Made by a program: the position numbers and the translations under genes. The notes under the pieces are model-generated. The model had not been told where the DNA came from. It did no database searches and saw only the letters and a program-made list of their open reading frames with translations. Source: a virus. From it: a DNA stretch of 26,358 nucleotides. Positions 2,707-14,534 of the stretch are shown here, in pieces. Numbering within the stretch: position 1 is the first letter of the stretch; each line of letters starts with the position of its first letter. The stretch spans positions 1 to 26,358 of IMG/VR virus record IMGVR_UViG_3300031669_000208; one strand, 5' to 3'.

Positions 2707-3672
2707 ATGGCAGATAATGTCTCAATAAAAGACTTTGGTGGTAATGCCGCAGTCATTGCAACAGATCAAGTAACAGATGCTACCCTCGGAACAGTAGAAG
2801 TTCAATATATGAAGTTGATGGACGGAACCATCGACTCTACAAACAAGCTTGTTATAGATAGTTCTGGTCGCCTACAAGCAAACATTGGTAACTTACCAAC
2901 AGACTTGGCTGTGTCAGGAACAATCACGGCACTGTCACAGACTATATCCATACCCACTTCCGAGACACAAACAGTGGGTGTTCAAATAAGTGGAACCTGG
3001 TCAGGATCACTTACTCCAGAAGTATCTATAGATGGAACAACATATTATCCTATAAACTTCGTAGATACTGGAGGTGGGTTATTGGGAAATACCTGGTCCG
3101 CAAACAATCTCGGACAAATAAATGTTGGCGGCACATTATACTTCAGAGTAAGAGCAAGTGCTTGGAGTAGCGGAACAGCAACAATATCGCTAAGAGCAAC
3201 TTCCCGTTCGTCGGTTATTTCACTTAATGAATCATTGCCACAAGGATCAAATACTATTGGTGCAGTGTCCCAATCAGGAACCTGGAACATTGGATCAATA
3301 ACAACAATGCCAACAACCCCAGTTACTGGAACATTCTGGCAAACAACACAACCAGTAAGTGGAACTGTAGGAATAACAGGCACAGTAGCAACAGCAGAAG
3401 TTCCTCCAACAACAGTAGCACACGCACTTGCGACAGTCACTACAGCAGGAACAAGTGTTCAACTACCAGCAAACACAGCAAAATCAATCACAATTAAAGC
3501 ATCAACCACAAATACAGGGATTATATATGTAGGCGGATCTACTGTGTCGGCATCAAATGGATTCCCCCTATATGCTGGCGACACTGTGTCATTAGATATA
3601 AGTAACACAAGTGTGATCTGGATTGACGCTTCAATAAATGCTCAAACAGCAAACTGGATAAGCAATGAGTAA
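2707..3672 (+). CDS. Beta-rich tail or virion surface protein, 321 residues
   Basis: The protein starts MADNVSIKDFGGNAAVIATD and has an N-terminal segment of the type found in phage appendage proteins (TDQVTDATLGTVEVQYMKLM, then IDSSGRLQANIGNLP). The middle (about 85-170) is a Ser/Thr/Gly-rich beta sandwich: GVQISGTWSGSLTPEVSIDG, LYFRVRASAWSSGTATISLR. The C-terminus (about 235-321) has VTTAGTSVQLPANTAKSITI, NTGIIYVGGSTVSAS, LYAGDTVSLDISNTSVIWID, a small beta domain common at the end of phage virion proteins. No membrane segment or catalytic motif is seen. It overlaps the start of the fibre gene by 8 bases, suggesting coupled translation and a shared appendage. Confidence 0.65.
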   Translation: MADNVSIKDFGGNAAVIATDQVTDATLGTVEVQYMKLMDGTIDSTNKLVIDSSGRLQANIGNLPTDLAVSGTITALSQTISIPTSETQTVGVQISGTWSGSLTPEVSIDGTTYYPINFVDTGGGLLGNTWSANNLGQINVGGTLYFRVRASAWSSGTATISLRATSRSSVISLNESLPQGSNTIGAVSQSGTWNIGSITTMPTTPVTGTFWQTTQPVSGTVGITGTVATAEVPPTTVAHALATVTTAGTSVQLPANTAKSITIKASTTNTGIIYVGGSTVSASNGFPLYAGDTVSLDISNTSVIWIDASINAQTANWISNE

Positions 3673-5257
3673 AACTAACGCAACTTCAAAAACAATCAAC
3701 ATTCCTGGTAATGCTGGCACTGCAACCGACGCAACCAACGCACACTATGCAGTCGCAGGCAAGAACGTAGCTTTAGCTTCAGATACAAACCTACAAACTT
3801 GGGCTGATAGTCTGCCAAGATGCGGGATGTATGATGTTGGCTTGTCAGTGGCGCAAGGAAACTTACCTGCTGCTTTTTGGTATATTGAGTTGCAGCGTTA
3901 TTCAAGTGACGCTGCTGGAAACTTATACCATGTCATCACTGCAAAAGGCCTGGATGGATCAGGATCAGGATTAATGTATACGAATACTTGTTATTATGGA
4001 ACTTGGACAGGATGGATACAGGTTGTCACGTCGATTGCTGGCACAGCAACCAACGCAACCAATGCTATTAACGCGACTACGGCGACCGCAGCAAACGGCC
4101 TTAATTCAGCAACGACCACTGTTGGAGTTTCAACTGCCGCAGCACCAACAGTGGGGCAAGTGCTAACGGCAACATCAAGCACAGCGGCAACTTGGCAAAC
4201 ATCGTCATCGCCGTCAATGTTCCGCAACCGCATCATCAACGGAGATATGTCAGTAAGTCAGGTGAATGGTGGAACTACGGTTACTCTTACTACCATTGGG
4301 TATGTTACTGACATGTGGACTGCGTCATTAAGTTCAGGCGGGCTAAACTGTATTTCAGCACAACAAGTTGTAGATGCTCCTCCGGGATTTAAGTATTCAA
4401 CTAAATTTACCGTTACTAACCAACACGCTCCGGGGGTTGGAGAACCATTCTACTTCCAACAACCAATTGAAGGTCAGAACATTATTGATTTTGGATTTGG
4501 AACAGCCTCTCCTAAAACTATCGCAACTGGGCAGTGGATTAAAGGGAGTGTTCCGGGAGTCTACAGTGTTTCAATAAGGAGCGGCACGGCTGATTACAGT
4601 TATATTGGGACAGTCAACGTAACAACCTCGTGGACTCAAGCCGTGATTACAATAGTAGGAACATCTTCTGGAACTTGGCCTACAGATAATACGACAGGAA
4701 TGCAGTGGGCATTGGATTTAGGTTCTGGCTCAAACTTCAACACCACTGCTGGTTCTTGGCAAGCAGGTAACTACTTCAACACCACAGGTTCAGTTACCTT
4801 CGTCAATCAAGTAGCAGGCTCAACCCTCAACATCACAGGAGTCCAGTTAGAGAAAGTGCCAACAGGTGCAACCACTGGAACTGACTTTGAGTTTCTTCCT
4901 GATGATGTGGTGTTGATGAGGTGTCAGAGGTATTTACAGCCACTCGGTATAGCTGGAAATGAAGCACCGATAGGAATAGGATTTGGAATAGGCTCGGGCG
5001 CAGTTGTTACTCAGAGCGAATTTAATCCACCTATGCGAACTGCGCCCACTGTAAGTATTATTGGTTCAGCAGCAAGTATATATATGACAACAGCATCCAT
5101 CGCAGCATACGCTTCTTCGGGCATAACTGCCGTAATAGCAAGCCCAACTGGATGTAACTATCAGTTGAGTGGCCCGACAACATTCCCGATTTATTCCTGC
5201 GCACATATTCGGAGTGCCGCAGTTGGCACAGCAATACTGGCAGACGCGAGACTATAA
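3665..5257 (+). CDS. Tail fibre / receptor-binding protein, 530 residues
   Basis: The N-terminal region has two Ala/Asn/Thr-rich segments, GNAGTATDATNAHYAVAGKN near residue 15 and GTATNATNAINATTATAANG near residue 125, typical of trimeric fibre shafts. Between them is the block TWADSLPRCGMYDVGLSV through YGTWTGWIQV, a common fibre unit. From about residue 185 comes MFRNRIINGDMSVSQVNGGT and DMWTA, then a jelly-roll-like C-terminal region ending TGVQLEKVPTGATTGTDFEF and MRCQRYLQPLG. NRIINGDM-V-Q with VQLE-G-TDFE and CQRYL is the signature of many phage fibre C-terminal carbohydrate-binding domains. The likely role is host receptor recognition. The last 100 residues (after CQRYL) probably form the variable tip. 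Confidence 0.8.
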   Translation: MSKTNATSKTINIPGNAGTATDATNAHYAVAGKNVALASDTNLQTWADSLPRCGMYDVGLSVAQGNLPAAFWYIELQRYSSDAAGNLYHVITAKGLDGSGSGLMYTNTCYYGTWTGWIQVVTSIAGTATNATNAINATTATAANGLNSATTTVGVSTAAAPTVGQVLTATSSTAATWQTSSSPSMFRNRIINGDMSVSQVNGGTTVTLTTIGYVTDMWTASLSSGGLNCISAQQVVDAPPGFKYSTKFTVTNQHAPGVGEPFYFQQPIEGQNIIDFGFGTASPKTIATGQWIKGSVPGVYSVSIRSGTADYSYIGTVNVTTSWTQAVITIVGTSSGTWPTDNTTGMQWALDLGSGSNFNTTAGSWQAGNYFNTTGSVTFVNQVAGSTLNITGVQLEKVPTGATTGTDFEFLPDDVVLMRCQRYLQPLGIAGNEAPIGIGFGIGSGAVVTQSEFNPPMRTAPTVSIIGSAASIYMTTASIAAYASSGITAVIASPTGCNYQLSGPTTFPIYSCAHIRSAAVGTAILADARL

Positions 5258-7985: not shown

Positions 7986-8354
7986 ATGGATTATCAGAGA
8001 ATATATGCTAACTTAATCTCGTATGCCGAAAGAACATACTTAACCGGTTATAGAGAAAAGCATCATATTATTCCAACTTCACTTGGTGGAACAAACTCAC
8101 CAGAAAATCTCGTCTATTTAACATTGAGACAACATCTGATGGCACATTTACTATTATATAAGATGGGACACGGCAACCAGATCTTCTCTGTAGAATGTAT
8201 GCTAATAGATAGTCTCAATCCGAACCACCGAAGATACCATAAGATAAAATGGAAGAGATTATATAGAAAACTCATCACCTTACAAAGAGCGAAGGTAAAT
8301 CTGGAACAAAAAAGACAACAAGTAGAAGAAAGACAAAAGAATCAACATATATAA
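7986..8354 (+). CDS. HNH homing endonuclease, 122 residues
   Basis: The protein carries a clear HNH core: YREKHHIIPTSLGGTNSPEN then LVYLTLRQHLMAHLLLYKM. H26-H27, N41, H50 and H54 fit the metal and active-site pattern of the T4 mob / phage HNH family (K-HHIIP---GG---ENLV-LT-R-H--AH-LL). The C-terminus is a basic helix (KIKWKRLYRKLITLQRAKVN), probably DNA-binding. It has no intron hallmarks around it that I can see, so it looks like a free-standing homing gene. Start ATG immediately follows the previous stop. The stop codon overlaps a TATAAATA box. It lies between unknown small genes and a truncated ParB-like gene, whose breakage may be linked to homing. Confidence 0.85.
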   Translation: MDYQRIYANLISYAERTYLTGYREKHHIIPTSLGGTNSPENLVYLTLRQHLMAHLLLYKMGHGNQIFSVECMLIDSLNPNHRRYHKIKWKRLYRKLITLQRAKVNLEQKRQQVEERQKNQHI

Positions 8355-8357
8355 ATA
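8350..8357 (+). promoter_or_regulatory. TATAAATA late promoter box upstream of the ParB remnant and terminase genes
   Basis: Exact match overlapping the HNH stop. The predicted start near 8363 is one base before a 13-bp hairpin (8364-8394), so the transcript would begin with a structured 5' end. No other box lies between here and the terminase genes, so this may be their promoter. Confidence 0.6.
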
Positions 8358-8363
8358 CAAATA

Positions 8364-8415
8364 AGCAATATATTATAGGATTATAATATTTGCTGTAGGG
8401 CTTATGGATGTAAGC
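8364..8415 (+). other. Two-hairpin leader element, copy A
   Basis: Hairpin 1: AGCAA-ATATTATA (8364-8368 and 8370-8377, one bulged T) pairs with 8382-8394 around loop GGAT. Then GTAGG leads to hairpin 2: GCTTA (8400-8404), loop TGGATG, TAAGC (8411-8415). The same plan and the same GTAGGG and TGGATG segments occur at 12487-12534, with a different but compensated second stem. A good SD, AGGAGG, follows at 8433, before ATG 8447. Confidence 0.6.
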
Positions 8416-8446
8416 ACATATATCAAGAATACAGGAGGTATTCACA

Positions 8447-8626
8447 ATGTCAAAAAGCAATCTTACTGTAGAGATGGTAGATATAAATCTTATTCAACCA
8501 TACAAAAACAATCCCCGTAAAAACACCGATGCTACTAAAGAAGTGGTTAAATCTATTAAGGAATATGGATTTAGACAACCTATTGTGGTTGATGAGAATA
8601 TGCGGTTAAACACGAAAAACCGATAA
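8447..8626 (+). pseudogene. Truncated ParB-like N-terminal domain (59 residues)
   Basis: AGGAGG precedes ATG 8447, so it is probably still translated. The product has VEMVDINLIQPYKNNPRKNT, DATKEVVKSIKEYGFRQPIV and VVDENM, matching the start of ParB/Srx-type domains found in phages, often fused or adjacent to DNA methyltransferases (consensus LI-PY-NNPRKN---V--SI-EFGF-QPIVVD). The expected next segment, IIVGHTR with the core catalytic or binding residues, is missing. Instead the frame reads RLNTKNR and stops. A small inverted repeat, CGGTT/AACCG (8603-8622), spans the break. This looks like a deletion remnant, with the rest of the gene lost up to the terminase small subunit. Confidence 0.68.
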
Positions 8627-8637
8627 GGAGATAGAAT

Positions 8638-9048
8638 ATGGCAGCACCTAAAGGTCATCCTAAATATATTAAAAGAGTAGATGAAAAGCAACTGGCAAAG
8701 TTGGCTGGAGCACATCTCACAACTAAAGAAATATCGGCAATATTAGATATAAGTGTATCTGCATTAGAAAAATCACCATACAAAGAGATTATTTCGGTCG
8801 AAAGAGGACTAACAAAACAACGACTAAAGCAAAAAGCACTACAACGAGCATTGATTGACAGCTCTGATGTGATGCTAAAGTTCTGTCTCAAGAACTATTG
8901 TGGAATGACGGATAATGATATAATACCAATTGACGGAAATGGAGAAGATTCAAATGTCGGATATACTATTAAAATAGTCAGACCACAAGCATTTAAATCA
9001 AAAGCCGAAATTGCCGCAGAACAAGAAGACGACAATAACAAAGAATGA
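8638..9048 (+). CDS. terS: Terminase small subunit, 136 residues
   Basis: The N-terminus (MAAPKGHPKYIKRVDEKQLA, KLAGAHLTTKEISAILDISV, SALEKSPYKEII) is the helix-turn-helix layout of phage terminase small subunits. It is followed by a helical segment RGLTKQRLKQKALQRALIDS and the family mark MLKFCLKNYCGM, similar to AAIWLGKQYLG-TD in relatives. The acidic C-terminal tail (AAEQEDDNNKE) is where the large subunit often binds. Its job is to recognise the packaging site and load the motor. SD AAGGAG is at 8625-8630. Its stop overlaps the start of a GIY-YIG gene, which separates it from the large subunit. Confidence 0.8.
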   Translation: MAAPKGHPKYIKRVDEKQLAKLAGAHLTTKEISAILDISVSALEKSPYKEIISVERGLTKQRLKQKALQRALIDSSDVMLKFCLKNYCGMTDNDIIPIDGNGEDSNVGYTIKIVRPQAFKSKAEIAAEQEDDNNKE

Positions 9049-9557
9049 CAACACCATATTTATATAAATGGACAGAAATATCTACCGGCATGTGGTATGT
9101 TGGCTGTAGATGGGCTATCGGGTGTTCTCCTGAAGAAACAACCTATTATACATCAAGTAAGAAAGTAAAATCATTTATTAAGGCAAATCCCCAAAACTGG
9201 ATTAAAGAAATATTAGAAGTTTCTCATTCAGGTGAGTATATTCGAGAATTAGAATCAACCTGGTTATGGTCAAACGATGCTAAAAACAATGTATTGTCAT
9301 ATAATTTACATAATGGAAATGGTGAAGGTGCAATAATAAAAAAAAGCAGAAAAGGAATATCCACAGGACCAAACCTAAAAAATCGCGGCAGAAAACGACC
9401 TGATGTGTCTATATCAAATATAGGAAATACTTATGGTAAAGCAAATAAAGGTAGATTAGTCACCGACGAGCACAGAAAGAATATATCAGAAGCAAAGAAA
9501 AAAGGTAACTATACCTGGATTCTTGTAGATGGTAAAAGGATATATAAATCAAAATGA
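9045..9557 (+). CDS. GIY-YIG homing endonuclease between the terminase genes, 170 residues
   Basis: It is related to the protein at 383: both begin LYKWTEISTGMWY (first and second GIY-YIG motifs LYKW and WYVG, Y18-G20), share ELE and SYN-HNGNG, and end DGKRIYK. Here the tail has no Gly-Pro expansion. It instead has a good NUMOD3 motif, NKGRLVTDEHRKNISEAKKK, near residues 135-155. It overlaps terS by ATGA and terL by ATGA, so it is fully embedded in the operon without interrupting either gene. This is typical of a mobile endonuclease inserted between conserved late genes. The final codons before terL look like those after the first copy (GATGG-AAAAGGATATATAAA), which may supply the terL SD. 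Confidence 0.85.
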   Translation: MTTPYLYKWTEISTGMWYVGCRWAIGCSPEETTYYTSSKKVKSFIKANPQNWIKEILEVSHSGEYIRELESTWLWSNDAKNNVLSYNLHNGNGEGAIIKKSRKGISTGPNLKNRGRKRPDVSISNIGNTYGKANKGRLVTDEHRKNISEAKKKGNYTWILVDGKRIYKSK

Positions 9558-10810
9558 AAGAAGTAGAATTACTTTCTCATCAGATAGACTTTATTCAATC
9601 AGTAGAGCCCGCTTTCTTGGGATTGGTAGGTGGTTATCGGTCAGGAAAAACCCATGCATTGTGTCATAAAGCATTATATATGTCTCTTCTTAATACCAAA
9701 GAAGATGGTGCTCTATTATCTCCGACTTATGGTATGATCACCAGAACACTCGTTCCTACAATGAATAAGATACTATACGAAATAGGACTGAAATTCACAC
9801 ACAACAAATCAGACGGATATTATGAAATAACATTCGGAAACAAAGTAAGAAGAATATGGTTACTGTCAGCAGAAAACTTCGACAAGGCAGCTGGTATGAC
9901 TCTATCGTGGTTCGGAATAGATGAGATTGACCGTATGACTCTACAAGTGGCAACAGATGCGTGGAAAATGATGGTAAGTCGTCTAACAAAAGGTGAGAAG
10001 AAACAAGGATTCTGTGTATCTACTCCAGAAGGATATAACTGGATGTATCAGTTTTTCGAAGCAAATGCTGACACAACGAGAAGACTCATCAGAGCATCAA
10101 CATACGACAATCCGTTTATAGACGAAGACTACTTTATACAAATGGCTGCAACTCATACTTCAGAACAGTTGGAAGCATATTTCTATGGTAAGTTCATCAA
10201 CTTCACAGACGGCAACGTGTATTATCCGTATGACAGAGCAAAGAATAGATCAACAGAAACATTGGCAAAACATCCTCACGCACCATTATCTATTGGTATT
10301 GACTTTAACATCGGTAAAATGGCAACAATCGTAGGGATCATCATAGGTCAGGTTCCTCATATTGTTGATGAAATATATGGAACACAGAATACAGAGGCGC
10401 TGATTAGAGAGATAAAACGCCGTTATCCGAATAGGCAAATCAAGTGTTTTGTTGATGGATCAGGTGACACAATGCGATCTGACTTTACGTCAATGTCACA
10501 AACCGATGTGATGCAACTCAAACAAGCATTCGGAACAAACAATGTTCATCACTACAAAGGACATATTCCTGTTGCAGATAGAATAGGAGCAGTTAATCAG
10601 AAGTTTGCCAATGCTCTCGGACAGAGACAACTATTCATCAATGACTTTATGTGCCCTGTTCTGGTAAGATGTATAGAAACACAGGGTTTCATAAATGGTA
10701 AGCCAGATAAATCAGGTGATATAGACCATATGCCAGACGCACTTGGTTACTTTATATCATATGTATGGGCACCAACAAAGCATAGATCAAAGATAACGGT
10801 ATTGGTATAA
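9554..10810 (+). CDS. terL: Terminase large subunit, 418 residues
   Basis: The ATPase domain has Walker A GGYRSGKT at residues 26-33 and Walker B WFGIDEID at 119-126 (D123, catalytic E124). A coupling motif candidate, CVSTPEGYNWMYQFF, follows near residue 153. The nuclease domain begins SIGIDFNIGKMATIVG with D250, has FVDGSGD with D301 and ends DIDHMPDALGYFISYVW with D391/D395; these acidic residues fit the RNase H-like metal site. The enzyme pumps DNA into the head and cuts it. Length is normal for a compact member. The start overlaps the homing endonuclease stop (ATGA); the nearest SD, AAAAGGA, is about 12 bases away, so coupling may matter. Confidence 0.93.
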   Translation: MKEVELLSHQIDFIQSVEPAFLGLVGGYRSGKTHALCHKALYMSLLNTKEDGALLSPTYGMITRTLVPTMNKILYEIGLKFTHNKSDGYYEITFGNKVRRIWLLSAENFDKAAGMTLSWFGIDEIDRMTLQVATDAWKMMVSRLTKGEKKQGFCVSTPEGYNWMYQFFEANADTTRRLIRASTYDNPFIDEDYFIQMAATHTSEQLEAYFYGKFINFTDGNVYYPYDRAKNRSTETLAKHPHAPLSIGIDFNIGKMATIVGIIIGQVPHIVDEIYGTQNTEALIREIKRRYPNRQIKCFVDGSGDTMRSDFTSMSQTDVMQLKQAFGTNNVHHYKGHIPVADRIGAVNQKFANALGQRQLFINDFMCPVLVRCIETQGFINGKPDKSGDIDHMPDALGYFISYVWAPTKHRSKITVLV

Positions 10811-10818
10811 TAGAGAAG

Positions 10819-10826
10819 TATAAATA
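10819..10826 (+). promoter_or_regulatory. TATAAATA late promoter box before portal
   Basis: Exact match in the gap between terL and portal. The predicted start near 10832 leaves a leader of about 15 bases with AAGGA as SD before ATG 10847. Confidence 0.6.
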
Positions 10827-10846
10827 AGATATAAGGACAAAAGACA

Positions 10847-12478
10847 ATGGCACAGACAAAACAAAAAGCAATAGCTGGCAAGACAATAACATTCGAAGAC
10901 TTTTTCAGTCCTAATGCTAATGCTGTTCAGAAACTTGTTGATTATTATGAAGGTGATCAACTTGCGTATGTTATTCAGATGCTTGACGGTGGAATGAACG
11001 GATGGGGAAAACGAAAAGAATGGAAACATAGAGGTATTATTCCTCGTGTTAGAAATATAACCCGATCAATCATATCTAAATCAGGTATGTTATTCAATAG
11101 ACCGCCAGTTATGGGAATTGTTACAGATACAGATAAGTTGCCAGTAACAGACCCAGTATTATCTGAAATGCTCGAAAACGCAGATTGGATGGAGGTGATG
11201 CAAAATCTGGATATTTACACTCGACTAACTGGTTCGATTATATTACTACAACAGTTGTCAATCCCAGACGGAGTTACCACAACAAATGGTCAATATAGAT
11301 ACGATCATACTCGCGGCGATCAACTAATAATGACTATCCTTCATCACGGAAATACTGTGGCGAGAATGAATCAAGCAAGAACAAAGATAACCGAACTTGG
11401 GTTTATCCTTGGAGATACGGCACTACAAGGCGGAAATAACTATTCACCAAGACCGAAAGAATGGTCATATTGTGTATGGACACCAGAAGAGATTATCGAA
11501 ATACAGGTAAATGAAGACGCAGACGACTCAAACAAAACAAATAATGACAATCAAATCGAAACAGTCATCAGCAGAGAACCTAACCCATATGGTATGATTC
11601 CAGCGTCATTCTTCTATGACACAAATAAACCTCGTCGTGGAATATGGCAAAGACCAGCAGAAGACTTAATCGCATTACAAGAAGTGGTCAATCTTGCTTT
11701 AACAGACACAGAGTTTGCGATCGCATTCCAGAAACAAAAAACATTATTCATCACTGGTGACATTATCAATGACGACGCAAACTCAGGTGATCAACTTATA
11801 CCAGCAGCACAGATGGGATCTTCGCCAGCAGGAGCAGTATATAATGACATACCATTCTATCAAACAAGAAAGCAATCTTATATTGGTGGTTTAGGTTCAA
11901 TCGCAAAACTTGGATCAGATGGTGACGGAGTGGCAGGAAAAGCAGAGTTTATTGGACCAGACACTAAACTCGGAGAGTTAGATGCGATCATAACAGAATA
12001 TATCGGTTCAGTGGCAAACGACTGGGCAGTAAATATTAACTATGGTGGTTCTGGCAAAGCAACTTCGGGGTTTCAACTTATAGTAGAGGAAATATCAAAC
12101 TTACAACTACGAGAACTTCGCGGACAGTTAATGCAAGCAAATTTACGCAGATTCTACGAAATAACCAAATCAATCTACCCAGGACAACTTACAGACGGAT
12201 ATTTACAAGCACAATTTGCTGCACCGAATCTACCAGTAAATCAGATCGAAGTAGAAAATATCTGGACATTAAAGATTGACAACAACAGAGCGTCAATCAA
12301 AGACTACTTTATGGAAGAAAAGGGCTTGTCGGAAACAGAAGCAATGGAAAAGATTGCCGACATAATGGCAATGAATAAAGAAACAAATATACCACTGCCA
12401 GCAGCACCAGCAATACCTACACCAATAAAACCAGTAGCAACAACAAAGGCAAGCGCAGGAGCAATATTAGCAGGATAA
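10847..12478 (+). CDS. Portal protein (DUF4055-type), 543 residues
   Basis: The N-terminal part has VQKLVDYYEGDQLAYVIQML, WKHRGIIPRVRNITRSIISK and SGMLFNRPPV, typical of portal proteins of the DUF4055 type. The middle shows the wing-like region with EEIIEIQVNEDADDSNKT, then FFYDTNKPRRGIWQRPAEDL, LIALQEVVNLALTDTEFAIA. The clip and stem part includes LGSIAKLGSDGDG and KATSGFQLIVEEISNLQLRE. A C-terminal Ala/Pro-rich tail ends the protein. Portals form a dodecameric ring at one vertex through which DNA enters and to which the tail binds. Position right after terL and before the scaffold gene is canonical. The start has AAGGA as SD. Confidence 0.85.
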   Translation: MAQTKQKAIAGKTITFEDFFSPNANAVQKLVDYYEGDQLAYVIQMLDGGMNGWGKRKEWKHRGIIPRVRNITRSIISKSGMLFNRPPVMGIVTDTDKLPVTDPVLSEMLENADWMEVMQNLDIYTRLTGSIILLQQLSIPDGVTTTNGQYRYDHTRGDQLIMTILHHGNTVARMNQARTKITELGFILGDTALQGGNNYSPRPKEWSYCVWTPEEIIEIQVNEDADDSNKTNNDNQIETVISREPNPYGMIPASFFYDTNKPRRGIWQRPAEDLIALQEVVNLALTDTEFAIAFQKQKTLFITGDIINDDANSGDQLIPAAQMGSSPAGAVYNDIPFYQTRKQSYIGGLGSIAKLGSDGDGVAGKAEFIGPDTKLGELDAIITEYIGSVANDWAVNINYGGSGKATSGFQLIVEEISNLQLRELRGQLMQANLRRFYEITKSIYPGQLTDGYLQAQFAAPNLPVNQIEVENIWTLKIDNNRASIKDYFMEEKGLSETEAMEKIADIMAMNKETNIPLPAAPAIPTPIKPVATTKASAGAILAG

Positions 12479-12486
12479 AGATATTC

Positions 12487-12534
12487 AGCATAGACGGGTG
12501 TTTATGCTAAATAGTAGGGAGTGTGGATGCACTC
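12487..12534 (+). other. Two-hairpin leader element, copy B, before the scaffold gene
   Basis: Hairpin 1: AGCATA (12487-12492) with TATGCT (12503-12508). Hairpin 2: GAGTG (12519-12523), loop TGGATG, CACTC (12530-12534), preceded by GTAGG. The order, the GTAGGG segment and the TGGATG loop are the same as in copy A at 8364-8415, while both stems differ in sequence and still pair. CGGAGA follows as SD before ATG 12556. Confidence 0.6.
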
Positions 12535-12555
12535 AACATTTAATCGGAGATTAAA

Positions 12556-13170
12556 ATGGAAAACGAAAATCAAGAAGTAACAGCAGTAGATCCAAGAGAA
12601 GTAGCTACTCAAGTAGAAGATAATGCGGATCATATTGACTGGGAAGCAAAAGCAAAAGAGTTAGAGGCAGTTATTGCCAAGCAAGCAGCTCAAAAGAAAG
12701 AAACCGAAAAACAAAGAGATTTACTAAAGCAAAAAGTTAAAACACCTTTAGAAAATCCAGAAGTAACGGCATACTTAAAAGAAGAGTTGGCAAAAGTGTC
12801 AGCACAACAACAAAAGTATGTAGAAAGAGCAAAATCAGGTGCGATCAAAGTTGCCGCTTCATCAAAACTATCGGCAATGGGAATCAATCCACAGGCATTA
12901 GATTTAGCAGTTGCTCAACTTGATAAGAGTCTTGTTCAATATGACGAAGATACAGATTCAGTAGATGATACAGCATTGTCAGCAGCAGTGTCAAAACTAA
13001 AAAGTCAGCATCCGTTCTTATTCGAAAAGACTGTTGGATCACCTAAAGTGAGAACACCAGCAGAAGGATCTTCAAGAGGAGACAGCAACACTATCTCAAG
13101 AGAAGACTGGCAAAATATGACGACAAAAGAACAAAGAGCAGCAATACTGTCTGGTCGTCGAGTGGAATAA
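12556..13170 (+). CDS. Head scaffolding protein, 204 residues
   Basis: The protein is highly charged and helical, with an acidic start (MENENQEVTAVDPREVATQV), a long coiled-coil-like helix (WEAKAKELEAVIAKQAAQKK, ETEKQRDLLKQK, YLKEELAKVSAQQQKYVERA) and a polar C-terminus containing ISREDWQNMTTKEQRAAILS. Small size, coiled coil and location between portal and coat gene are the usual signs of a scaffold, which guides procapsid assembly and is then released. The C-terminal basic bit (GRRVE) could contact coat. No protease motif is seen. Its 5' leader holds a structured element shared with another leader. Confidence 0.75.
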   Translation: MENENQEVTAVDPREVATQVEDNADHIDWEAKAKELEAVIAKQAAQKKETEKQRDLLKQKVKTPLENPEVTAYLKEELAKVSAQQQKYVERAKSGAIKVAASSKLSAMGINPQALDLAVAQLDKSLVQYDEDTDSVDDTALSAAVSKLKSQHPFLFEKTVGSPKVRTPAEGSSRGDSNTISREDWQNMTTKEQRAAILSGRRVE

Positions 13171-13201
13171 TAGTAAAACTACTCTTATTTAGATGCTAAA
13201 A

Positions 13202-13209
13202 TATAAATA
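13202..13209 (+). promoter_or_regulatory. TATAAATA late promoter box 1 before the capsid gene
   Basis: Exact match, first of two boxes 38 bases apart. The predicted start near 13215 is followed by a small AT-rich hairpin (ATACT 13218-13222 with AGTAT 13230-13234). Confidence 0.6.
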
Positions 13210-13239
13210 ACTGTATAATACTATAAAAAAGTATAGAAA

Positions 13240-13247
13240 TATAAATA
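13240..13247 (+). promoter_or_regulatory. TATAAATA late promoter box 2 before the capsid gene
   Basis: Exact match. The 14-mer TAGAAATATAAATA (13234-13247) is repeated exactly at 16328-16341 before the tail tube gene. The predicted start near 13253 lies at the foot of the hairpin at 13251-13274. Confidence 0.65.
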
Positions 13248-13250
13248 AGA

Positions 13251-13274
13251 GTAGAACATATTGTTATGTTCTAC
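13251..13274 (+). other. 10-bp perfect hairpin at the 5' end of the capsid leader
   Basis: GTAGAACATA pairs with TATGTTCTAC around loop TTGT. No T run follows, so it is not a terminator. It sits at the predicted transcript start and 40 bases before the ATG, where it could protect the capsid mRNA from 5' decay. AAAGGAG lies about 10 bases before the ATG. Confidence 0.7.
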
Positions 13275-13313
13275 CACAAATCGAACATAACACATTAAAG
13301 GAGATTTACGATT

Positions 13314-14534
13314 ATGGCAAATATTCAAGGCGGAACAAACTATGCAGGAGCAGGTGCAACGACACTGTCAGCACTTATTCCTATCATCTACGAAGCAAGA
13401 GATAAAGTGGCTCGTGAGCCTATTGGCCTTATTCACGCAGCAACACGCGACGCTTCAGAATCACAAGCAGCAGTTGGACAAACAGTAAGAAGCCCAGTTA
13501 CTCAAGCAGCAACATTGACAGCGATTACTCCAAGTAACGTTGTTCCTAATACTGGTGGTCAAACATTGCTTTACAAAGACTTGGTTATTGCCGACTCTTG
13601 GGCAGCTCCGGTTCAGTGGACAGGTGAAGAACAACGCGCAGTTGGAGATAACTACGAAGTTATTGCTCGTGATCAGTTCTCCCAAGCATTTCGTGTTTTA
13701 GATAACAAAATCGAAGCAAGTCTCGTAAATACAATGGTAGCTGGATGCTCCCGCGCATACGGAAATGTATTAGTATCACCATTCACTTATGTCGCAAACA
13801 GCAATTCGTCAATGCTTCCATTCGCAGAACTTAACCTTATCCTGGACAATAACGGAACACCAGATGGCAACCGTGCTCTTATCCTTGGTAACCGTGCTAT
13901 GGCAAATGTTCGCGCAATGCCTAACTTATACAAAGCAAACGAAGCTGGAACAGACGAACTATTGCGTTTAGGCGCAGTGATGGAAGTTGATGGTTTCAAA
14001 TTCTACAAGTCAGGTCAGTTAGACAAAAACGGCCACACAGCAGGAACAGGAACTGGATATGTTACAGACGGAACTGGCGCAGCATCAGGTTCAGTATATC
14101 AAGCAGGCGAAACAGCAATCAAAGTTAAAACAGGCGCAAATGTTATTTCAGCAGGCGACACAGTTACTTTCGCAGGCGACACAAATGTTTATGTTGTTGC
14201 TTCAGGTGTTACAGCAGCAGGTCAGACATTGACTTTAGCAGCACCAGGACTACAACAGTCAGCAGCAGATAGTGTTGCGATCACAGTAGGTGCTTCATAC
14301 TCGCCTAACATTGCTTTCGACCCAACAGCACTTATCCTTGCTTCCCGTGCTCCGATTATGCCAGTAGGTGGCGACGCAGCAACTGATGTGGCAATGGTTC
14401 TTGACGCTATTTCGGGTATTTCTTACCAGATCGCTCAATACAAAGTGTATCGTCAGGTTCACTTCGAAGTTGGTCAAGCTTGGGGTTCATTAGCTAACAA
14501 GCCAGAGTTTGCAGCAATGCTGATCGGTAACTAA
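13314..14534 (+). CDS. Major capsid protein, P22 coat (gp5)-like HK97 fold, 406 residues
   Basis: The N-terminal part ALIPIIYEARDKVAREPIGL followed by the segment to TLLYKDLVIADSWAAPVQWT and GEEQRAVGDNYEVIARDQFS matches the P22 coat-like family, as does NKIEASLVNTMVAG. A beta insertion at about residues 240-330 (YVTDGTGAASGSVYQAGETA, AGDTVTFAGDTNVYVVASGV) fits the I-domain of that family. The C-terminus NIAFDPTALILASRAPIMPV, ISYQIAQYKVYRQVHFEVGQ, AWGSLANKPEFAAML is a very good family match. Codon usage here is richer in CGT and GTT than in neighbours, as expected for an abundant protein. The gene has two promoter boxes, a 5' hairpin, a strong SD and a terminator-like hairpin, so it is a self-contained high-expression unit. 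Confidence 0.88.
   Translation: MANIQGGTNYAGAGATTLSALIPIIYEARDKVAREPIGLIHAATRDASESQAAVGQTVRSPVTQAATLTAITPSNVVPNTGGQTLLYKDLVIADSWAAPVQWTGEEQRAVGDNYEVIARDQFSQAFRVLDNKIEASLVNTMVAGCSRAYGNVLVSPFTYVANSNSSMLPFAELNLILDNNGTPDGNRALILGNRAMANVRAMPNLYKANEAGTDELLRLGAVMEVDGFKFYKSGQLDKNGHTAGTGTGYVTDGTGAASGSVYQAGETAIKVKTGANVISAGDTVTFAGDTNVYVVASGVTAAGQTLTLAAPGLQQSAADSVAITVGASYSPNIAFDPTALILASRAPIMPVGGDAATDVAMVLDAISGISYQIAQYKVYRQVHFEVGQAWGSLANKPEFAAMLIGN

Follow-up and report, generated by a model that had tools for sequence, protein, structure and literature searches.

Rows of GGA-loop hairpins in scaffold and capsid gene leaders of double-stranded DNA phages: a candidate translational operator, possibly read by the scaffolding protein

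Hairpins in the leaders of the window

The window is the whole of a 26,358-nucleotide stretch of viral DNA (IMG/VR record IMGVR_UViG_3300031669_000208, positions 1 to 26,358). Its forward strand carries a ParB-like remnant followed by a candidate small terminase gene (terS), and further downstream a scaffold gene followed by a major capsid protein gene. Two leaders, copy A before the remnant and copy B before the scaffold gene, hold rows of small hairpins that end at a Shine-Dalgarno sequence (SD). These hairpins are the subject of this study (Table 1). An earlier reading of the letters alone (the sequence-only reading) had proposed here a two-hairpin RNA element with compensatory stem changes.

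Table 1. Leader hairpins, promoter-like elements and genes of the window
Feature	Position	Strand	Description	Basis
ATAAATAC, T4-late-promoter-like −10 element	8351..8358	+	putative promoter activity	pattern scan
Copy A hairpin 1	8364..8394	+	AGCA...TGCT, 13 bp with one bulge, loop GGAT	sequence, fold, scan
Copy A hairpin 2	8400..8415	+	gcttatGGATgtaagc, UGGAUG loop	fold, scan
Copy A hairpin 3	8427..8443	+	gaatacAGGAGgtattc, SD inside loop, 4 nt before ATG 8447	fold, scan
ParB-like remnant, 59 aa	8447..8626	+	between leader A and terS	PHROG match 3e-15 to the family's first quarter
Small terminase (terS) candidate	8638..9048	+	5′ of terL	position; L001 counterpart matches phrog_309 terminase small subunit, 5e-4
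Copy B hairpin 1	12487..12508	+	9 bp, loop GGGT, overlaps promoter-like element	sequence, fold
CTAAATAG, promoter-like −10 element of the scaffold unit	12507..12514	+	putative activity	pattern scan
Copy B hairpin 2	12519..12534	+	gagtgtGGATgcactc, UGGAUG loop	fold, scan
Copy B hairpin 3	12539..12555	+	tttaatcGGAgattaaa, SD inside loop, directly 5′ of ATG 12556	fold, scans
Scaffold gene	12556..13170	+	presumed target; may also encode the reader protein	phrog_2303 head scaffolding protein 2e-6; Phage_scaffold PF06810 4e-6, below curated cut-off
Major capsid protein gene, P22-coat-5 family	13314..14534	+		phrog_283 3e-69; tblastn relatives

Hairpins 1 and 2 of both copies were recovered by sequence and by folds where the sequence-only reading had placed them. 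Its two-hairpin plan was incomplete, since it had overlooked a further hairpin in each leader, hairpin 3, whose loop contains the SD. The TGGATG of hairpin 2 is present in both copies, but its outer T and G pair as U·G, which leaves GGAU as the loop of the folded hairpin. Between the copies, the stem of hairpin 2 differs at three of its five pairs and not at four, because the outer G-C and one T-A are identical. Hairpin 2 had been placed 30 to 20 bases before the SD, but it ends 18 nt (copy A) and 11 nt (copy B) before the GGA of the SD. The GTAGGG lead-in is common to A and B but is missing in the nearest relative, L001 (72% portal identity). Therefore, it is no part of the element. No exact match was obtained with the pattern GTAGGGNNNNNTGGATG; the right register is GTAGG-N5-TGGATG.

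Both leaders folded better than their dinucleotide shuffles (z −3.1 and −4.3, for longer stretches). Successive GG(A/G) motifs are spaced by 28 and 28 nt in copy A and by 28 and 21 nt in copy B. The forward strand of the window contains 19 GGA-loop hairpins with a score of at least 5, and five of them fall within leaders A and B, so the GGA-loop hairpins of the two leaders exceed chance. Repeated hairpins with (Y)GGAU(G)- or GGAG-type loops, the last one holding the SD, as looked for 5′ of scaffold genes, were found at 8364-8443 and at 12519-12555. The conserved unit is a single small hairpin with a GGA-type loop, which is repeated and whose last copy holds the SD.

Hairpin rows in related phages

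The same arrangement was found in the window's own lineage. In L001, the scaffold leader has atgctaTGGATTtagcat and tgttatGGAGataaca, and the terS leader has ccactaTGGAGTtagtgg and tgttaTGGAGTtaaca. The scaffold leader of L002 has gctaacGGAGgttagc and tgtcGGAGgaca, and L003 has ttcaacAGGAGgttgaa 5′ of the scaffold gene and gctgatGGAGgtcagc 5′ of terS. A scan was made of 103 genes with a GGA near the start from ten phages of this lineage, the window included. SD-in-loop hairpins with a score of at least 5 were found at 10 genes, all of them scaffold (8) or terS (2) genes. The SD lies in a hairpin loop on a stem of at least 4 bp in all ten scaffold genes, a position that fits translation control as had been suggested. 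Fourteen different 5′ arms were counted among 15 hairpins compared. Four phages of the lineage have an upstream hairpin with another near-constant loop, TGTAGT or TGTAGG, again on differing stems. The portal gave no relatives in the genome-contig collection and no similar portal in the phage collection.

A wider set was assembled from phages with a capsid protein homologous to the P22-coat-5 protein of the window (about 600 matched, 80 fetched). Tandem hairpins with GGAT loops and differing stems, usually two or three, were found in their scaffold leaders and often before the capsid gene too. The carriers include E. coli HK639, Klebsiella phage 5, Rhizobium P106B, Salicola CGphi29, and Synechococcus Ssp-JY42. 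When all tetraloops in 33 scaffold leaders were counted without bias, GGAT ranked first. It was the loop of 20 distinct hairpins, whereas shuffled leaders had 0.165 on average, and the maximum for any tetraloop in any shuffle was 4. Pairs with the same loop of 4-6 nt on different stems were also counted over more than 100 loci: GGAT gave 46, of which 44 lie upstream of the capsid gene, and no other loop gave more than 4. Among 79 further viral loci (663 kb), the coding strand carried 36 clusters and the opposite strand one, and 33 of the 36 were at a scaffold or capsid leader. Likewise, 190 of 519 GGAT sites in scaffold or capsid leader zones were flanked by four pairs, against 128 of 3918 elsewhere. 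Most units close their loop with C-G or U-G, which gives the consensus (Y)GGAU(G); both window copies read UGGAUG. The first two hairpins of an array are usually 24 nt apart. Of the 60 leaders with a GGAT, 31 have the last one ending 4-8 nt 5′ of the ATG, and therefore the GGA of this last copy is likely the SD. No gathering threshold of any family in Rfam release 15 was reached.

These loops bear on the question of whether a protein reader is needed at all. The hairpins could tune expression in a purely passive way: their folding might expose or mask the SD, they might be standby sites for ribosomes, or they might shield the 5′ ends of abundant late mRNAs. Scaffold and coat presumably rank with the most highly expressed proteins, and hairpin 1 of copy A would begin at the predicted transcript start of the upstream −10 element (about 8364). 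However, a passive role leaves unexplained why tandem copies keep one (Y)GGAU(G) loop, even away from the SD, while their stems change freely, and we regard it as rather unlikely.

Some phages of the wider set show other features near the same genes. In the scaffold leaders of L080 and L129 (about 4260-4330) and 5′ of the capsid gene of L081, repeated hairpins have the loops CTGAG and TAGTG. Those with CTGAG are ccccgCTGAGcgggg, tgggCTGAGccca, and gcacCTGAGgtgc, and one CTGAG copy is terminator-like. CTGAG and TAGTG may be further loop types of a like operator. A strong intrinsic terminator lies just 5′ of the GGAU array in L045 (HK639; 4616-4637) and in L024-L032. Therefore, the scaffold-capsid unit of the HK639-like phages may have its own transcription.

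Covariation and RNA nature of the hairpins

Covariation was measured on 70 GGAT sites located within 110 nt upstream of a scaffold ATG and unselected for pairing. Cells were paired in 84.9%, compared with 52.8% after shuffling and at most 51% when slid. The covariation score was 0.803 against 0.239 for the shuffled sites; kinship among sequences inflates such counts, and it is preserved in the slid controls. Among 32 complete arrays, two-sided changes were seen in 12 of 15 pairs, which exceeded every shuffle, and RNAalifold, without guidance, folded them into the same three hairpins. The sequence-only reading had supposed a conserved RNA motif whose loop is fixed and whose stem covaries; this was borne out, and the covarying homologues whose lack would have spoken against it were found.

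G-U pairs outnumbered A-C mismatches by 40:9 and by 57:6, which indicates a structure formed by the coding-strand RNA. A signal at the DNA level, such as a pac site or a hairpin promoter, was ruled out by the strand bias together with the G-U pairs. The suggestions of a packaging signal or a processing site did not hold either, since the arrays are placed before scaffold and capsid genes and seldom before terS, and since the structure belongs to RNA of one strand. Sequence comparison thus shows a row of hairpins with a fixed loop and covarying stems, formed in RNA, whose last loop holds the SD.

A transcription signal, namely a put-like antiterminator RNA or a hairpin promoter, would be another role. 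The terminator just upstream of the array in HK639-like phages would suit antitermination, and put RNAs of the HK022 type work without a phage protein. On the other hand, only a few bases separate the array from the start codon, the SD often forms its last loop, and capsid genes are preceded by arrays as well. Nothing would tie an antiterminator to the SD, so this placement speaks against it, and the G-U pairing argues against a DNA hairpin as promoter. A transcription signal is therefore very improbable.

The reader of the hairpins

Rows of GGA-loop hairpins with one at the SD are the textbook target of host CsrA/RsmA, which would bind the loops and repress translation. The leaders show exactly such rows, and hairpin 2 of copy A reads AUGGAUGU. 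The consensus of CsrA is an ANGGAX hexaloop (PMC4005645). However, only 4 of 99 units have the A two bases 5′ of GGA; in the window, hairpin 2 has this A in copy A and a G in copy B. No match to the CsrA family was found in eight whole genomes (Afipia, three Phyllobacterium, Variovorax, an alphaproteobacterial metagenome-assembled genome, Duganella, and Janthinobacterium). Their prophages nevertheless carry arrays or, in the truncated locus L157, a capsid-leader hairpin. Host CsrA as a general reader was excluded by these prophages. A phage-encoded CsrA was not found in the phage contigs, and the loops of other clades have no GGA. Taken together, CsrA is an improbable reader.

A covariance model of the arrays (R1) gave 19 matches over 13 whole host genomes, and 18 of them were at prophage scaffold or capsid leaders, which indicates that there is no host regulon. 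A scan of one bacterial order returned the known prophage and one weak match without a head gene, and nothing else. In these sequences, the arrays are restricted to head-gene leaders, absent from host genes, and independent of host CsrA. Because arrays occur where the host has no CsrA and no host regulon is seen, the reader should be phage-borne.

A conserved motif, MKLKLDxxGHVVVxDGKPVYVHDDGKE, was found at the N-terminus of the scaffold in array phages. Arrays were present in 54 of 65 phages with this motif and in 6 of 75 without it. Phages with another scaffold N-terminus (MPWKM...) have other loops, AGGUAA in L021 and AGCA/AGTA in L096. The scaffold is thus the most economical candidate for the reader, because its gene is the constant target, its motif tends to go with the array, and the loop seems to change with its N-terminus. 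A fixed loop on a covarying stem was found at the ribosome-binding site of the scaffold gene, that is, of the proposed reader's own gene, as would be expected for the RNA of an autogenous operator.

Another phage protein, the coat or an unrecognised small regulator, could read the hairpins, the scaffold being only a target. This would agree with the arrays that also precede the capsid gene, and terS in the window's lineage, and with the lack of a host regulon. However, no second candidate gene was identified and the scaffold gene is the most constant target; we consider a reader of this kind unlikely, though it deserves serious attention.

Neighbouring genes and promoter-like elements

The pattern [ATC]TAAATA[CGA], which resembles the T4 late promoter, was located by scan 5′ of 13 of 15 leaders in the window's lineage with a strand bias. 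On the forward strand of the window, it occurs at 372, 1789, 6955, 8351, 10820, 12507, 13203, 13241, 14599, 17326, and 18086, in each case 11-111 nt 5′ of a gene start. The strand counts were 21 forward against 5 reverse in the window and 71 against 12 in ten related loci. No match to a sigma factor was found among ten proteins tested (eight from G001). The element of the scaffold unit sits between hairpins 1 and 2 of copy B, and therefore hairpin 1 may be off the scaffold mRNA.

The homologous leader of L001 adjoins terS. In the window the ParB-like remnant intervenes, so the operator was apparently moved away from its gene by an insertion or by decay. The terS candidate itself had no PHROG or Pfam match. 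For the scaffold, the predicted structure had a pTM of 0.37 and a fold search of the PDB gave no significant match. The leader of the window's capsid gene (13170-13313) has other hairpins, such as gtagaacatATTGTTatgttctac, but no GGA row, unlike many relatives.

Three genes of the window resemble homing endonucleases: 383-1039 and 7986-8354 by PHROG homing-endonuclease matches, and 9045-9557 by its resemblance, judged by eye, to 383-1039. The last two flank the terS region. Similar genes are inserted at other places in L001 (8320-8907 and 12406-12759). L001 also has GTAGCA-(2-3 nt)-TGCTAC hairpins with near-identical stems and without a GGA loop, at about 1170-1190, 2920-2940, and 3330-3345. 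They lie downstream of TAAATA elements and 5′ of several non-structural genes, and are possibly another regulon of L001.

Discussion

Tailed phages must balance the amounts of scaffold and coat. The leaders described here may be an autogenous translational operator whose reader would be one of the phage's head proteins, the scaffold being the likeliest; we favour this explanation at a little short of an even chance. A translation regulator bound by a phage protein, one of the roles offered by the sequence-only reading, was the best fit, with the binding itself presumed. The row of hairpins with a fixed GGA-type loop would form the operator, and its last hairpin would present the ribosome-binding site. 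Free scaffold, outside procapsids, would bind the loops and cover the SD, so that less scaffold is made. In some phages, the same binding might also slow the synthesis of coat or terS. Once scaffold is taken into procapsids, the operator would be freed. We infer each of the three steps separately, namely that a protein binds, that this protein is the scaffold, and that binding represses translation.

Several points weigh against this explanation. Several relatives have no array, and gene 8 of P22 itself is not preceded by one. When kinship was controlled, the link between motif and array came to 4.8 independent pairs in the same direction and 0.1 in the opposite one, with a median p of 0.06, and is thus only suggestive. 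The window scaffold starts with MENENQE... and has no N-terminal motif; therefore, the reader of the window may differ. Lastly, the R1 model matched untrained arrays with E down to 1e-9, but neither the window nor its close relatives gave a hit up to E = 10, so membership of the window in the R1 array family is not claimed. The hairpins of the window are AT-rich and the GGAU arrays are GC-rich. The two are linked by loop, place, and SD geometry, and may share a common descent.

In a broader form, the hairpins would belong to an undescribed and widespread family of RNA operators, through which the scaffold controls the translation of itself and of the coat, with a loop that shifts by clade along with the scaffold N-terminus. 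This proposal is tentative, and we consider it possible rather than probable. The element is compact, repeated, and strongly covarying. It occurs in tractable phages such as E. coli HK639, and its candidate reader is encoded alongside. It would add an RNA family that is missing from Rfam.

Among known systems, RegA and RegB of T4 control early phage mRNAs at SD sites of the GGAG type. The window resembles T4 in its T4-late-like TAAATA promoters, but RegA and RegB act on early genes, and neither was seen among the proteins tested, which were a subset of the genes. The coat-protein operators of the RNA phages MS2, PP7, and Qbeta are small hairpins with a fixed loop at a ribosome-binding site, read by a virion protein. 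They are single hairpins in RNA genomes, whereas tandem copies occur here in double-stranded DNA phages and the binding is putative.

The scaffolding protein of P22, gp8, has long been known to limit its own synthesis by post-transcriptional autoregulation, and we know of no RNA operator mapped for gene 8. No paper on P22 scaffold autoregulation was found in the open-access literature, and an earlier description of the hairpins is possible beyond open access. As in P22, the scaffold gene here lies directly 5′ of a capsid gene of the P22-coat-5 type, and control is proposed at scaffold synthesis. However, the leader of P22 gene 8 lacks a row of GGA hairpins. If the proposal is true, it would give the autoregulation of scaffold in double-stranded DNA phages an RNA element with a mapped position. 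The leaders of CsrA/RsmA targets also have several GGA-loop hairpins with one at the SD (PMC4005645). Unlike them, the present hairpins have a GGAU tetraloop closed by C-G or U-G and do not keep the A of ANGGAX, and their arrays are found also in prophages of CsrA-free hosts. A row of GGA-loop hairpins is therefore not by itself a sign of CsrA.

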